Shown here in pieces: positions 863-7,435 of a stretch of DNA of 36,830 bases (within the stretch, counting starts at the first letter, position 1; every line of letters starts with the position of its first letter). Both the position numbers and the translations under genes were made by a program. The notes under the pieces are model-generated. The model made no database searches and was not told the DNA's origin. It saw nothing but the letters and a program-made list of their open reading frames with translations. Source of the stretch: Desulfurococcales archaeon (lineage in GTDB: Archaea > Thermoproteota > Thermoprotei_A > Sulfolobales > Desulfurococcaceae); assembly GCA_027002875.1 (NCBI GenBank), contig JALWZC010000118.1, positions 1 to 36,830 on the forward strand, given 5' to 3'.

Positions 863-903
863 GCTTAAATTGTATGCTTTACATGACTCTATTTATAGGT
901 GAT
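863..903 (+). promoter_or_regulatory. TATA box and GGTGAT ribosome-binding site of the M20 peptidase gene
   Basis: A CTTAAAT TATA-like box at 864-870 predicts transcription starting near 893. GGTGAT at 898-903, complementary to the archaeal 16S 3' end, sits 6 nt before a TTG at 910. The in-frame ATGs at 874 and 883 would lie upstream of the predicted transcript start. Assignment is by eye. Confidence 0.5.
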
Positions 904-909
904 AAACTA

Positions 910-2169
910 TTGGCTAAGCTCCCAAGCTGGGTTTACGAATTATCGGAAAGGATCCTGTTGGAGAGTATTAAGTACCCTACAGTCCTGGGGGAGAGTTACG
1001 GGGAACTCGTGGAGTATTACGCTGAGATATTGAGGCAGCATGGATTACACGTAACGATACATAGGGTTCCCGACGAGTACGTGCGTAATAAGCTTTCAGA
1101 GGAGTATAACCCGGATAAGCCTAGATACATACTGCTAGCAAGGATTGGTAGTGGTGATCGAGTACTCCAATTCAACGGGCATTATGACGTAGTATTTCCT
1201 GGTGAAGGATGGAGTATTACAGATCCCTTTAAACCCTTAAAGAAGGATGGGAGAATATACGGGCGGGGATCAACCGATATGAAGGCAGGGATAGCGGCTT
1301 TCCTATCAGCAATGATATACCTAGCGGCACAAGGAGAAGAGCCCGGCATAATCGTTGAGGCAGCAGTTGTTCCCGACGAAGAAATCGGCGGCGAAACCGG
1401 TACCGGATACCTAGTAAATATGCTTGGTTCAAGGCCTGACTGGGCTGTTATCGCAGAGCCAAGCGGGATGAACAATATATGGCACGGGCATAAGGGGCTA
1501 GTGTGGGCCCGGATCAAAGTTAAAGGTAGACAAGCACATGGTTCAACACCGTGGCAGGGCATTAACGCCTTCGAGAAAATGGTTTACGTTGCTAAGTACT
1601 TAATCGAAGAATACCTCCCAGCATTGAAGAAGCGGAAGAGCAGATACATATATGATCAGGCTGGGGGAGAATACCCGACAGCCACCCTTGGCGGAAAACT
1701 CTGGAGCCCCGGCAGTATTAATATAGTGCCTGGAATCGTCGGCTTCAGCATTGATAGGAGGCTAATAATCGAGGAGGATACGGGGACCGTTATACGGGAG
1801 CTGGAGGAATACATTGAAAAAGCTTCTCGAGAAGCTGGTGCTGATACTGAGCTGGAGGTTTTACAGAAGATGGAGCCTGCATTCACCGATCCAGACTCCG
1901 AGATCGTTGAAGCATTATCGACCGCTATTAATCGAGTACTGGGAGTTAAGCCGCGTAGAACTATTTGTGTGGGTGGCCTAGATTTAAGATACTATACTTA
2001 TAAGGGCATACAAGCCGCAAGTTATGGACCCGGAGAACCGGGTATTGCTCATAAAATCGATGAATACGTAACCATAGACTCGCTACATAGAGCAGTCGAT
2101 GTATATGTTGAACTAGTAAAAACGCTGTCATCATTGACGGGGAAAACTAGGCCCCATAAACAGTTTTAA
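910..2169 (+). CDS. M20-family metallopeptidase/deacylase (ArgE/DapE/carboxypeptidase G2-like)
   Basis: Predicted cytosolic di-zinc amidohydrolase of about 419 residues that removes an acyl group or cleaves a C-terminal residue or dipeptide. The family ligands are visible: GHYD (H91, D93), STDMKAG with the bridging Asp at D123, PDEEIGG with the general base and ligand pair E157/E158, an AEPSG segment, and a late GIAHKIDE histidine. The lid/dimerisation domain lies roughly between residues 180 and 300. The start is taken as TTG 910 because GGTGAT ends 6 nt upstream and a TATA box lies at 864-870; the longer frame from ATG 874 adds 12 residues. The neighbours do not form an arginine or lysine pathway, so the substrate (acetylornithine, succinyl-DAP, N-acyl amino acid or peptide) is open. 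The 3' end overlaps the convergent tetR-like gene by 23 bp. Confidence 0.85.
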   Translation: MAKLPSWVYELSERILLESIKYPTVLGESYGELVEYYAEILRQHGLHVTIHRVPDEYVRNKLSEEYNPDKPRYILLARIGSGDRVLQFNGHYDVVFPGEGWSITDPFKPLKKDGRIYGRGSTDMKAGIAAFLSAMIYLAAQGEEPGIIVEAAVVPDEEIGGETGTGYLVNMLGSRPDWAVIAEPSGMNNIWHGHKGLVWARIKVKGRQAHGSTPWQGINAFEKMVYVAKYLIEEYLPALKKRKSRYIYDQAGGEYPTATLGGKLWSPGSINIVPGIVGFSIDRRLIIEEDTGTVIRELEEYIEKASREAGADTELEVLQKMEPAFTDPDSEIVEALSTAINRVLGVKPRRTICVGGLDLRYYTYKGIQAASYGPGEPGIAHKIDEYVTIDSLHRAVDVYVELVKTLSSLTGKTRPHKQF

Positions 2170-2698
2170 CCAGGATTTCAAGGTATTCATTCCTAGAGAT
2201 ATTCCGGGGTACTCTAAGCGTGTAGCATAGTAGGCTTCCGAAGAAGGTCCTCATCTTTACGATCTCCGCTTTACCGCTTTTACCGTAAACCCTCTCAGCG
2301 ATCTTAACCATGTGCTTCTCACATATTTCCCTGAGCTTCTCTTTAAGAGATGGATATAATTCTTCGATCGACACAGTGTGGAGCATTAGATTCCTATACA
2401 TGGGATTAGTGTATTTATCAAGGTATTTCCCACCAAGGCAGTTTAGGAATTCTAAGCCTTCAAGATCAGTTTTTAAACAATCATTGATAACATCGAGGGG
2501 CAAACTCCTAGATGCAACCTCGAGTATTAATTCATCCTTACTCCTAAAATACCAGAATATCAGACCCTTCGAAACATCAGCCTCCCTAGCGATAAGGGAT
2601 ATTGGAGCTCTGAAATACCCGTACTGGGCGAAAACCCTCATAGCAGCCTCGATTATCTTCTCCCTAATATCTTCTACGCGCCTAGTCAATTCAACCAC
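2147..2698 (-). CDS. TetR/AcrR-family transcriptional regulator
   Basis: A 183-residue DNA-binding repressor-type protein. Residues 10-55 hold the typical N-terminal TetR fold: IIEAAMRVFAQYGY, then the helix-turn-helix around 32-51 ending in the signature SKGLIFWYFRSKDEL. The remaining ~130 residues form the helical ligand-binding and dimer domain, which is divergent as usual, so the ligand cannot be read. The start is GTG (2698); a TTG three codons later is an alternative. Its tail overlaps the M20 gene by 23 bp in convergent orientation. The gene lies about 75 bp downstream of the molybdopterin oxidoreductase gene on the same strand, so the two may share a transcript or the regulator may control that enzyme. 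That link is inference. Confidence 0.9.
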   Translation of the reverse strand: MVELTRRVEDIREKIIEAAMRVFAQYGYFRAPISLIAREADVSKGLIFWYFRSKDELILEVASRSLPLDVINDCLKTDLEGLEFLNCLGGKYLDKYTNPMYRNLMLHTVSIEELYPSLKEKLREICEKHMVKIAERVYGKSGKAEIVKMRTFFGSLLCYTLRVPRNISRNEYLEILVKTVYGA

Positions 2699-2772
2699 AA
2701 TATAATATTATGGATGTATAGGTGTAATAAACCGCTTGGTCAATCCAATACAAATAAGGTTTTTGTAGAAAA

Positions 2773-3708
2773 TCACCCAGTCTTAAACCTCTCCTCTAAC
2801 CAGACATTACCGCGTGGGTGATAGCCTAAGGCCTCCCAGTAACCGTCCCGGTATTCCTCAATGAAGGTGATCCTATGAACCCATTTAACCCCCTTCCACC
2901 CGTAAAGGTGAGGGATTACTATTCTAGCGGGGAATCCGTGATCCGGGCTAATCTTTTCCCTGTTCATGAATAATGCTAGTATTCCCTCCTCCGCCAAGTA
3001 GTCTTCTAATGGTACTATACTCGTATAACCATCCAGCCCGGTGAAGTAAACCCATTTAGCCCTACCACTGACACGGGCTTCCCGATAAAAGAATTCTAGT
3101 GGAATACCCTTCCACTCAACGCCGCGAATACTCCAGCCAGTTACACAGTGAAAGTCTCTGCGAATATTTTTCATCGGTAGTCTATAGAGATCATTGATCC
3201 CGTACTCTAATACTTTTTCAACCAAGCCATCAACCCGTAGCCTGTAATTAGATAAATCAACTACTGGCTGGCCAAGGATCCTGTAGATAATGAAGTCTGG
3301 AATATATTTCTGACCCGGAGCCCCATTGTACATGTTACGCTTTACTCCAATATTCAAATCTCTAATACTCCTTCCAGCTTCAAAATCATCGAGCAGTCTA
3401 CGCAGTTTCACTGGTACTACGAAAAGCAGTCTAAACACCCTGTTCTCCCGCCTCACAACTCTTATAGAAATATAGCTGTCTCCTTTGTAGTATGAGCGGT
3501 AACGGTAAACAATGTAGTCTCCACCGATCGGTTCATTATCCATGAATACGATCCTATTCTTTAAACCAATAATACTTGATGCTTCCCTAACTATCGCGTT
3601 AATCCCGCTTATCCCCGGTATATTAATTGTTTTGTTCGCCCTACAATCAATCACTCCAGCAATCCCCTTTTCCTTTAAGGATTCGCTGGAGACTTTGATA
3701 CAATCCAT
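2773..3708 (-). CDS. Sulfite-oxidase-type molybdopterin-binding oxidoreductase with an extra N-terminal domain
   Basis: 311 residues. The C-terminal half (about 126-311) is the oxidoreductase molybdopterin-binding domain (sulfite oxidase/YedY type): APGQKYIPDF at the domain entry, the molybdenum-ligand cysteine C188 in FHCVTGWS, WKGIPL, SPDHGFPARIVIPHLYGWK, and KWVHRITF near the end. Residues 1-125 are not a domain I recognise. They read as a mixed alpha/beta stretch with no signal peptide and no cytochrome b5 or haem motif, so the enzyme is predicted to be cytosolic, unlike exported YedY-type proteins. The electron acceptor and substrate are unknown; no cytochrome or ferredoxin gene adjoins it. 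The ATG start is preceded by a weak GAGAGG site. The tetR-like gene follows on the same strand after about 75 bp. Confidence 0.82.
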   Translation of the reverse strand: MDCIKVSSESLKEKGIAGVIDCRANKTINIPGISGINAIVREASSIIGLKNRIVFMDNEPIGGDYIVYRYRSYYKGDSYISIRVVRRENRVFRLLFVVPVKLRRLLDDFEAGRSIRDLNIGVKRNMYNGAPGQKYIPDFIIYRILGQPVVDLSNYRLRVDGLVEKVLEYGINDLYRLPMKNIRRDFHCVTGWSIRGVEWKGIPLEFFYREARVSGRAKWVYFTGLDGYTSIVPLEDYLAEEGILALFMNREKISPDHGFPARIVIPHLYGWKGVKWVHRITFIEEYRDGYWEALGYHPRGNVWLEERFKTG

Positions 3709-3842: not shown

Positions 3843-5015
3843 TTGAGCGTTGTATCTAATCGTGGTGCATTGTTGACGCTTTATGGGTATACTGTGCTTA
3901 GGGGTGTGGGTAGGTCTGGTTTCATGATATTGTTTCCATTATACATACTATCAATAGGGTATAGGACAAGCGATCTCGGAGAAATAGCAATGATCGCATC
4001 CGGGCTAATGATCCTAGTCCTTCCATTATTCGGGTACCTCGTAGACCACGGTTATGCGGCGGAGGTAATGTTTTTATCCGGGCTATTCATGGGTGGATCA
4101 CTAATTATACCCGTCTTGAATAATTCATATCCACTCCTAGTAGTCTCATACATGATCTCTATGCTTAGCTTAATGGTTTGGTCTCCTTCTAGGAATAGAA
4201 TTGTGGGATATATTGTTACGGAGAAGTATATGGGTAGGATATATAGTTTATTCATAATACTCTTCAACTTAACAAGATCTCTTACATCATTTACAATAGG
4301 TAGGACGACCTATATAGGCTATGGAACGCTAATGATAATCATCGGGATCATCTCATTAATAGGATCCTTTTTAACCTATGTAGCATTACTGCTAAGTTAT
4401 AGGGAGAGGAGTAGTAGGACTACCGGTTGGACGGGCATACTTGATGGATATAAAGCTATGATTAGTTTCCCTAAGAGCCTTCTACCCTTGATAGTGTTTT
4501 CTCTAATGGATAGTTTTGCATGGAGGCTCTGGTTCCCCCTCCTTAATTCATATTTTAAAGAGTATAGGGGCTTAACCGATCCGGAGATCGGTGATTATAA
4601 CACGTTAATGGGCTTATCAATGATGTTCACCGCTTATGGGGCCGGTCATATAACCGATCTTATAAAACCGTTGAAAGCATTAATGATCTATGAAGTTATT
4701 GGGGCCATAGGCCTTGTACTGTTGCAGTTCGACTATCCATTATTAATGGCTTCAAGCATATTCCTCGGTTTTAGTATTGCGTTTTGGGTTTCAGCATATA
4801 ATACGTTGATTACAACCCTTCTAGGCCCCCACATGGTTGGGAGGTTGAGGGCTTTAACCGATAGCGCTAGGTCTCTAGCCGGGATACCCTCACCATATAT
4901 AGGCGGGTTATTAATGACTATTAACCCGGTACTAACATTTATACTCAGCATATCTTTAATGATTGCATCAATAACTCCGCTAGCTAAATTATCCGGGAAG
5001 ATTAGTTGGGGGTAG
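3843..5015 (+). CDS. Major facilitator superfamily (MFS) transporter
   Basis: A 390-residue integral membrane protein with about 12 hydrophobic helices in two halves separated by a polar loop near residues 185-205 (RERSSRTTGW). After TM2 the cytoplasmic loop reads GYLVDHG, a variant of the MFS GxxxDrxGrr motif, and the equivalent in the second half is AGHITDLIKP. The start is TTG 3843 with GGTG at 3832-3835. The substrate cannot be read from sequence. The next gene, a JAMM-motif protein, begins 6 nt after the stop, so the two are very probably one operon. Secondary transporters of this type in archaea export drugs or metabolites or import sugars and organic acids; no neighbour favours one. 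Confidence 0.82.
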   Translation: MSVVSNRGALLTLYGYTVLRGVGRSGFMILFPLYILSIGYRTSDLGEIAMIASGLMILVLPLFGYLVDHGYAAEVMFLSGLFMGGSLIIPVLNNSYPLLVVSYMISMLSLMVWSPSRNRIVGYIVTEKYMGRIYSLFIILFNLTRSLTSFTIGRTTYIGYGTLMIIIGIISLIGSFLTYVALLLSYRERSSRTTGWTGILDGYKAMISFPKSLLPLIVFSLMDSFAWRLWFPLLNSYFKEYRGLTDPEIGDYNTLMGLSMMFTAYGAGHITDLIKPLKALMIYEVIGAIGLVLLQFDYPLLMASSIFLGFSIAFWVSAYNTLITTLLGPHMVGRLRALTDSARSLAGIPSPYIGGLLMTINPVLTFILSISLMIASITPLAKLSGKISWG

Positions 5016-5021
5016 GCGTAG

Positions 5022-5720
5022 TTGGCGATTAAGCATCAGAGGATTATTGAGGATGAGTCGACGAGGAAGATTGGCTTCCTGTCCCGACTCGTAAACTTCC
5101 TCGAGGATGTATACGAGGATGCCGAGTGTGCTGATCTATACTACACGATTACATCGATAGAAGAGGAGAGCGTTATTGTTGAAGGTGTGGATTGTAATTA
5201 CCCGTTAAGTGAGAGTATTGATGTGTTCATGGATAAGTATGACTTGTATGCTGAGGAGGGGATTGGTAGGAAGCACTACACGGAGCTCTACGATGAAGTA
5301 GTCCGAGTCTACAAAAGCACCCTACACTACACAATGAAAAACTACGCGGCCCGATCACTACAGAAACACGTAGAGTACTATCTAGGAATACTATTCAGTG
5401 GTAAAGCATTCTTAGTCGAGGGCGAGGGGGATAAAGTCATTATCCCCGGTGGGCTCAACCAGTGTTTCGCAGCACATACCCATCCATCGAACCTACCCAT
5501 TCCTAGCCAGGCCGATGTACGGAGTATTACAAACTTATTCCTAGATAGGGGTATTGGACACGTTATTGAAACCGTTGGGCCCAGCCTAGCAATTTACAGA
5601 AGGGCTCCGTTGAGTATTGAGGATTTAGAAGTGCTTAAAACGCTTGATAGGTATCGTAGTATTGATGAGCTCTTCCGAGCCCTCGGTAGCCTTAAATCGA
5701 TTACTCTTACTTATTTCTAG
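5022..5720 (+). CDS. JAMM/MPN-type metalloprotease-like protein with unrecognised N-terminal domain
   Basis: 232 residues, probably a soluble zinc isopeptidase or peptidase-like protein. The JAMM signature is complete: H152-T-H154-P-x6-S162-x2-D165 (HTHPSNLPIPSQAD, close to RadC-type HNHPSGDPxPSxxD). It is preceded by EYYLGILFSG, in which E118 occupies the place of the catalytic glutamate before the family's VxGxLxG strand. The JAMM fold covers about residues 110-195. Residues 1-105 (acidic, no membrane segment) and the ~35-residue tail match no family I recognise. Archaeal JAMM proteins remove SAMP/Urm1-like ubiquitin-fold proteins; that role is inferred from the fold only, and no SAMP or E1-like gene lies nearby. 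TTG start, 6 nt after the MFS gene, so probably co-translated with it. Confidence 0.72.
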   Translation: MAIKHQRIIEDESTRKIGFLSRLVNFLEDVYEDAECADLYYTITSIEEESVIVEGVDCNYPLSESIDVFMDKYDLYAEEGIGRKHYTELYDEVVRVYKSTLHYTMKNYAARSLQKHVEYYLGILFSGKAFLVEGEGDKVIIPGGLNQCFAAHTHPSNLPIPSQADVRSITNLFLDRGIGHVIETVGPSLAIYRRAPLSIEDLEVLKTLDRYRSIDELFRALGSLKSITLTYF

Positions 5721-5884: not shown

Positions 5885-7435
5885 GTGTCTAATGTCTTGA
5901 CTTATAGGATACTTATAGCTAATCGCGGAGAAATAGCTGTTAGAATTGCCCGTAGCATAAAAGAGCTTGGTTATATTCCTCTAGGAGTCTATACTCGTGT
6001 TGATAAACAAGCGCTTCATAGGAGGTTTATGGCTGAAGACGCTGAGATCCCGAGTTATCTGGACATGGATGAAATAATAGATGCCGCTATCAGGCTTGGA
6101 GCAGACGCTATCCACCCGGGATACGGGTTTCTAAGTGAGAACCCCTTATTTGCTGAGAAAATCGTTAAGAAGGGATTAATCTTCATCGGCCCTCCGCCGG
6201 AGATCATGAGGCTTGCAGGCGATAAAGTAATGGCTAAGAAACAGGCTGAGGAAGCGGGTATACCGACACTACCTTATATGGTCGTTGATGATCCTGATGA
6301 TATCGTTGAGTTCGCCGAGGAGCATGGGTACCCGGTTATCATAAAGGCTGTTGGCGGCGGTGGGGGAATGGGTATGAGGATCGTTAGGAGCAGCGGGGAA
6401 GCCGAGGACATGTATGAGCAGGCCCGGAAGGAGGCTGAAAACGCTTTCAAGGATCCAAGGCTATACGTTGAACCATACATTGAAAACCCTAAGCATATCG
6501 AGGTCCAGATACTGGGTGATGGGGAGAACATTATACACCTGTACGAGAGGGATTGCAGTATTCAGAGGAGGCATCAGAAGATAATTGAGGAGGCTCCAGC
6601 GGTTGTATTATCGAGTAGGGAGAGGAAAGCTCTTCTCAATGATGCTGTTGAGTTGATGAAGCATATAAAATATGTTAATGCTGGAACGGTTGAAATGCTC
6701 TACGATATGAAGCGTAAGAAACACTACTTCATGGAGATCAATGCCCGCCTACAAGTAGAACACCCGGTAACGGAGATGATTACTGGTATAGACATTGTTA
6801 AGCAGCAGATTAGGATAGCGTTAGATGGAAGCCTATCGCTTAAACAGAGGAGTATTAAAATGCATGGACACGCAATAGAGGCTAGGATTAACGCTGAAAA
6901 CCCATTATCACTAATGCCTTCACCGGGTAGGATTACGAGGTATTTAGAGCCGAGTGGGCCGGGTGTTAGGGTTGACTCCGGAGTTGCTTATGGCGTCGAC
7001 GTGCCCGGCGAGTATAATCCGTTGATCGCTAAGCTTATCGCGTGGGGTATTAACCGTGCTGAAGCAATTAATAGGCTACACAGAGCCCTGAATGAGTACT
7101 TGATACTGGGTGTTCAGACGAATATTCCCCTCCTAAAAGCTATAATCGAGAACCCGGTTTTCCGGAGAGGCCTCCATACGACGAGGTTTATGGAGGAGGA
7201 GAGGGAGAGGCTTAACGAGTATATTAGGAGGCTGGAGCTCCTGCATGCTACTATACTCGTAGCAGTAGCGGCGAAAGCGGATGCTAAGCTTAAAGCGAAG
7301 ATAATTAGTGGTACACGCTACGCATCCTATATTGATGGAACGATTCACCCGCATCGTGAAGCTATTAAGAGGAAGGCTTGGGTTTACTGGGTATTACTTC
7401 GTAGCCGTGTCGGCAGGAAGAAGAGGCGTAAGTAG
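5885..7435 (+). CDS. Biotin carboxylase subunit (acyl-CoA carboxylase or pyruvate carboxylase A subunit)
   Basis: A 516-residue ATP-grasp enzyme that carboxylates biotin on a carrier protein using bicarbonate and ATP. Visible are the N-terminal RILIANRGEIAVR, IHPGYGFLSEN, the glycine-rich ATP loop GGGGGMGMR near residue 157, YERDCSIQRRHQKIIEEAPA, and the active-site block EINARLQVEHPVTEM near 284. The catalytic set looks complete. The last ~65 residues (from about 450) are basic, end in RKKRRK and are not typical of the family. No biotin carrier and no carboxyltransferase gene lies in this window, so the partner must be elsewhere and the acceptor (pyruvate, acetyl-CoA or propionyl-CoA) is undetermined. 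The start is GTG 5885; a TTG at 5897 with GGTG at 5884-5887 is an equally good alternative. Confidence 0.9.
   Translation: MSNVLTYRILIANRGEIAVRIARSIKELGYIPLGVYTRVDKQALHRRFMAEDAEIPSYLDMDEIIDAAIRLGADAIHPGYGFLSENPLFAEKIVKKGLIFIGPPPEIMRLAGDKVMAKKQAEEAGIPTLPYMVVDDPDDIVEFAEEHGYPVIIKAVGGGGGMGMRIVRSSGEAEDMYEQARKEAENAFKDPRLYVEPYIENPKHIEVQILGDGENIIHLYERDCSIQRRHQKIIEEAPAVVLSSRERKALLNDAVELMKHIKYVNAGTVEMLYDMKRKKHYFMEINARLQVEHPVTEMITGIDIVKQQIRIALDGSLSLKQRSIKMHGHAIEARINAENPLSLMPSPGRITRYLEPSGPGVRVDSGVAYGVDVPGEYNPLIAKLIAWGINRAEAINRLHRALNEYLILGVQTNIPLLKAIIENPVFRRGLHTTRFMEEERERLNEYIRRLELLHATILVAVAAKADAKLKAKIISGTRYASYIDGTIHPHREAIKRKAWVYWVLLRSRVGRKKRRK

Follow-up and report, generated by a model that had tools for sequence, protein, structure and literature searches.

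The locus studied here raises the question whether the gene behind an MFS transporter in a Desulfurococcales archaeon encodes a true JAMM metalloprotease, and whether such an enzyme would work with the transporter or on ubiquitin-like proteins (Ubls). The window, which is the whole stretch of DNA analysed (36,830 nucleotides, contig JALWZC010000118.1), contains this gene and its neighbours (Table 1). The original prediction had described a JAMM motif fused to an unrecognised N-terminal domain and coupled to the transporter. The 6 nt gap between the two genes was correct: the MFS stop codon ended at 5,015 and the JAMM reading frame began at 5,022 on the same strand.

Table 1. Features of the JAMM locus in the window.
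Feature	Position	Strand	Remarks
M20 metallopeptidase, ancestral upstream neighbour	874..2169	+	Pfam M20; directly precedes JAMM gene in 19 loci
MFS transporter, lineage-specific insertion (evident from gene order)	3843..5015	+	Pfam MFS_1; adjoins only in the window, L037 and L039
JAMM metalloprotease gene	5022..5720	+	232 aa, TTG start; homologues in 109/121 near-complete genomes of the order
N-terminal domain, residues 1-100	5022..5321	+	AlphaFold2 alone pLDDT 93.8, pTM 0.84; no Pfam, no PDB fold match
C36, half of predicted N-domain disulfide	5127..5129	+	covaries with C58
C58, partner half of predicted N-domain disulfide	5193..5195	+	covaries with C36
MPN+/JAMM domain, residues 101-232	5322..5717	+	AlphaFold2 model and Foldseek
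E118, catalytic glutamate (predicted)	5373..5375	+	invariant, 43 sequences
H152-T153-H154, predicted zinc ligands	5475..5483	+	invariant, 43 sequences
S162-x2-D165, predicted oxyanion serine and third zinc ligand	5505..5516	+	invariant, 43 sequences
Biotin carboxylase subunit, conserved downstream neighbour	5885..7435	+	named from sequence; cluster c2, 22 loci

The motif H152-T-H154-P-x6-S162-x2-D165 was exact in the reading frame and agreed with the superfamily pattern E-xn-H(S/T)H-x7-S-x2-D. The glutamate proposed for catalysis, E118, was located before LGILFSG. Forty-three homologues were aligned, the most distant of them 17% identical to the window protein, and the residues E118, P142, H152, T153, H154, P155, S162 and D165 were unchanged in every sequence. 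The motif is therefore not a chance match, and both the motif and the candidate glutamate stood as predicted. Eighty family proteins were collected from loci in genomes of the order, loci outside the order being set aside, and all 80 kept HTH...S..D with an upstream E-aromatic or E-H; the HxH-to-S spacing among family members was x7 in 49, x6 in 23 and x8 in 6. It is nearly certain that the window gene encodes a real JAMM/MPN+ domain.

The AlphaFold2 model of the full protein, built on the alignment, reached pLDDT 94.4 and pTM 0.91. Residues 101-232 formed a helix (101-115), the strand with E118 (117-124), a further strand, a strand ending around H152 (147-153), the helix with D165 (163-174) and two more strands, which is the canonical order of MPN+ elements. 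Through Foldseek, good PDB matches of the JAMM model were found to AMSH, Sst2, STAMBP, AfJAMM and RadC. A fold match was also found to a 280 aa protein of Acidianus rod-shaped virus 2, a rudivirus (BFVD A0A0N9PCV1; E 1.5e-3, prob 1.00, TMq 0.42, 154 columns), which would be interesting if it is a JAMM.

The N-terminal domain modelled alone showed the topology alpha-beta-beta-alpha-beta-alpha, to which the full model adds a strand. The first ~100 residues matched no Pfam family, and the best Foldseek hit in PDB, at the sensitivity used, had E 0.87, which agrees with the earlier reading of an unrecognised domain. A ferredoxin-like fold, prompted by the order beta-alpha-beta-beta-alpha-beta, was set aside as Foldseek gave it no support. 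The phylum-wide search for stand-alone copies outside the JAMM family revealed no convincing one, with a few matches at E>0.001. This is a small domain for which no solved relative was found.

Disulfides are common in proteins of hyperthermophiles, and two cysteine pairs were found in the family. C36 and C58, in the N-domain hairpin, were both present in 29 of the 43 sequences, both absent in 13 and single in one. Cysteines at positions 159 and 187 were both present in 14, both absent in 28 and single in one; these counts of covariation are inflated by the relatedness of the sequences. The 159/187 pair sits at the offset (second His +5) of the C74-C95 disulfide of AfJAMM (PMC300881); a disulfide that ties the HxH-S loop to the following strand is a mark of the AfJAMM/HvJAMM2 group. 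The window clade has the first pair and lacks the second. The pattern fits with both pairs forming disulfides.

Among known JAMM groups, AfJAMM (AF2198; PDB 1OI0/1R5X), which was inactive on the substrates tried (PMC300881), shares the JAMM motif and the domain order with the family, and distant family members have a cysteine pair at its C74-C95 offset. However, AfJAMM has no N-terminal domain, its sequence similarity is below threshold (E 0.016 with the family profile against PDB sequences), and the window clade carries its cysteine pair in the N-domain instead of a C74-C95-type disulfide. The PfJAMM1/HvJAMM1 type (Prok-JAB, PF14464; PDB 5LD9) has the same catalytic motif and likely Ubl substrates, and coexists with the family in 44 genomes, but it is ~130 aa long without the N-domain. 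The eukaryotic deubiquitinases AMSH, Sst2 and STAMBP were the top fold matches of the catalytic domain, though with a TM-score of ~0.3 on the full query and sequence similarity limited to the motif; their ubiquitin-binding insertions are not shown for the window family. DRJAMM of Deinococcus and HvJAMM1 resemble the family in the proposed substrate, a MoaD C-terminal Gly-Gly joined to MoaE, a likeness of predicted activity that does not imply a shared subfamily.

In the profile comparison, the window protein scored 15.1 bits with Prok-JAB (cut-off 25) and 12.8 bits with RadC (PF04002, cut-off 22.1). JAB (PF01398) had no match in the window genome, and the Sulfolobus acidocaldarius member, at L134:5860-6513, reached 11.4 bits against a cut-off of 22.5. 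With hhalign the family matched PfJAMM1-type Prok-JAB at 91.6% probability over 27 columns, covering the motif helix only. Considering that RadC was among the weak profile and fold matches and that the gene neighbourhoods are mixed, the protein might do something other than proteolysis, as RadC is supposed to, or have some unrelated role; we regard this as quite unlikely, because none of the catalytic residues varies among the 43 diverse sequences, which argues for catalysis.

The family was revealed in 109 of the 121 genomes of the order with at least 90% completeness, nearly always as one copy. The order here is Sulfolobales sensu GTDB, which comprises Desulfurococcales and Sulfolobales of the older taxonomy. 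The phylum search recovered the family in 41 genomes of the order; elsewhere it was practically absent, with weak motif-level matches. The family tree largely tracked the taxonomic families, Sulfolobaceae included, which indicates an inherited core gene; the family is an ancient JAMM lineage passed on vertically. Genome G032 contained a second, shortened JAMM copy of the L052 type (~100 aa, L068:7010-7309), probably a pseudogene.

Prok-JAB was over the cut-off in 49 of the 121 genomes, and the one such protein of the order that was tested was PfJAMM1-like. Both JAMM kinds were present in 44 genomes, the window's family only in 65, Prok-JAB only in five and neither in seven. No Prok-JAB over the cut-off was found in the window genome or in S. 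acidocaldarius. The latter was recognised as genome G132: except for the first residue, the aspartate carbamoyltransferase encoded there has the same sequence as PDB 1PG5/2BE9, and 1PG5 is the S. acidocaldarius enzyme. A 2010 survey found no Jab proteases in many crenarchaea (PMC2948915), whose cells nevertheless carry E1 and Ubls. The family appears to be an uncharacterised lineage with a new N-terminal domain, apparently overlooked because its scores fall below the Pfam cut-offs. Elsewhere in the order, Prok-JAB and ThiF genes were observed side by side at G004:C1:1419644-1420692, G051:C5:189008-190596, G348:C57:7815-9987 and G368:C40:3529-5231, resembling bacterial JAB-E1 operons.

The older gene order in the window's taxonomic family was M20 peptidase, JAMM, biotin carboxylase and PEP synthase. 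Among the 80 loci, M20 was directly 5' of the JAMM gene in 19 and biotin carboxylase 3' in 22, while MFS adjoined it in three: the window, L037 (same genus) and L039. In these three loci MFS sits inside the otherwise conserved M20, JAMM and biotin carboxylase order, and evidently was inserted into that older cluster. The interval from M20 to JAMM further holds genes for a TetR regulator and a molybdopterin-binding oxidoreductase (window positions 2147-3708), in the window and L037 only. A JAMM protein that regulates the transporter or cooperates with it had been suggested before; it could, for instance, process the transporter itself or the peptides that the transporter carries. The short gap on the same strand makes co-transcription probable in the window, but the neighbour is missing at the other sampled loci of a family present in nearly all the genomes. 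We consider a functional tie very improbable and reject the coupling; the association appears incidental.

The neighbours changed by family, including pyrF, biotin carboxylase, carboxyl transferase, HD and M28. The JAMM gene could serve their metabolism, either M20/M28 peptide breakdown or a biotin-dependent acyl-CoA carboxylase (e.g. biotinyl-lysine amide cleavage), as it lies between M20 and biotin carboxylase across family f1, carboxyl transferase adjoins it in f3 and M28 follows it in f4. However, in Sulfolobaceae it lies behind pyrE-pyrF, often overlapping pyrF, and the f5 and f6 genomes keep it while no carboxyl transferase was detected in them, which indicates that the neighbours are positional and not functional. 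The link to acyl-CoA carboxylase or biotin was rejected on this ground, and a role in neighbour metabolism has a low probability.

The evidence points instead to the usual JAMM work on Ubls, and the “different kind of peptidase” suggested before is needless. Three ThiS/MoaD-type Ubls, each ending in Gly-Gly, and one E1 were found in the window genome; the Ubls are stand-alone only, with no MoaD-MoaE fusion among them. E1 was present in 118 of the 121 genomes of the order, and so was Ubl (118 of 121). Four genomes (g9 and g11) kept E1 and Ubl while neither JAMM kind was found, so the function would be dispensable there. L052 and L055, of one genus, each have a ThiS/MoaD gene that closes a molybdenum-hydroxylase operon and precedes the JAMM gene by 22-40 bp; its product is over the Pfam cut-off and has the C-terminus ...LYEGG. 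The chance of one such pairing is ~0.1 by a rough estimate from ~30 independent neighbourhoods, and, being confined to one genus, it is probably one event; as substrate evidence the pairing is suggestive only. S. acidocaldarius makes Urm1 isopeptide conjugates on many proteins (PMC4569737), and the isopeptidase passages of that paper name no Urm1-removing enzyme.

Each of the 11 Sulfolobaceae sampled, among them S. acidocaldarius, had a MoaD-MoaE fusion in which Gly-Gly falls exactly on the junction; both domains of the S. acidocaldarius fusion, at L167:782-1486, were over the cut-off. The C-terminus of a fused MoaD cannot carry sulfur, and such a fusion is thought to be non-functional before cleavage (PMC11237513). 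HvJAMM1 cleaves SAMP1-MoaE (PMC4443979) and DRJAMM cleaves MoaD-MoaE (PMC8832034). In the sampled Sulfolobaceae with the fusion, the window's family was the sole JAMM over threshold; three Sulfolobaceae of the order had an additional JAMM match of ~125 aa below threshold. The fusion loci were L167-L170 and L179-L185 (Sulfolobaceae), L171, L172, L178 and L186 (f3), L173 and L174 (f5) and L176 (f7), and Gly-Gly was conserved at each junction. In the f3 and f5 fusion genomes a PfJAMM1-type JAMM was also present and could do the cleavage.

The Ignicoccus-like family f7 had the fusion without a match to either JAMM profile. Its standing as a genome with fusion and no JAMM was weakened, not removed, by a divergent JAMM-like protein (HYHC...S..D) whose gene overlaps the E1 gene and which may serve the fusion. 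The Ignicoccus-like operon (L187:10300-12579 in G042; L189:6656-7471 in G052) encodes a 251-aa protein, by eye perhaps a beta-grasp/E2-like fusion, the JAMM-like protein (HYHC-x6-S-x2-D, without Pfam match) and a ThiF E1 whose gene overlaps that of the latter; 4 kb away there is a second, short ThiF gene. The operon looks like a divergent Ubl-conjugation system.

We consider it fairly probable that the window's family acts on Ubl C-termini, as a deconjugase in the window organism and additionally as a MoaD-MoaE maturase in Sulfolobaceae. Zinc would be held by H152, H154 and D165, with E118 activating water and S162 stabilising the oxyanion; positioning of the substrate is the probable role of the N-terminal domain. 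The predicted cut is after the C-terminal Gly-Gly of MoaD/ThiS/Urm1-type Ubls. In the window organism, where the Ubls already end in Gly-Gly, the enzyme would remove them from protein lysines, for example of molybdopterin synthase; in Sulfolobaceae it would cut MoaD-MoaE after Gly-Gly, and MoaD could then take sulfur.

Using the same chemistry at the Gly-Gly end of a Ubl, the enzyme could instead cleave a carrier-protein-bound amino acid and so act in biosynthesis and not in deconjugation, in the style of Mec, which acts on CysO, or QbsD, which acts on QbsE. In related cells Ubls carry sulfur, and in the window genome a PP-loop gene of the tRNA-thiolation type adjoins one Ubl gene. Since the recurrent neighbours included no recognisable cysteine synthase or like gene, we think this alternative unlikely.

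Returning to action on Ubl C-termini, it is plausible, though somewhat less likely than not, that Sulfolobales sensu GTDB have their general Ubl protease in this order-wide JAMM with its new N-terminal fold, which would serve Sulfolobus as MoaD-MoaE maturase and de-urmylase. The family may be the missing protease that cuts or releases the Ubls of the order containing Sulfolobus. Being single-copy, it is a concrete candidate for an enzyme that reverses or matures Urm1-type conjugates in the genetically tractable S. acidocaldarius. If true, this would name the protease for the fused MoaD-MoaE of Sulfolobaceae, where an uncut fusion would mean no molybdenum/tungsten cofactor.
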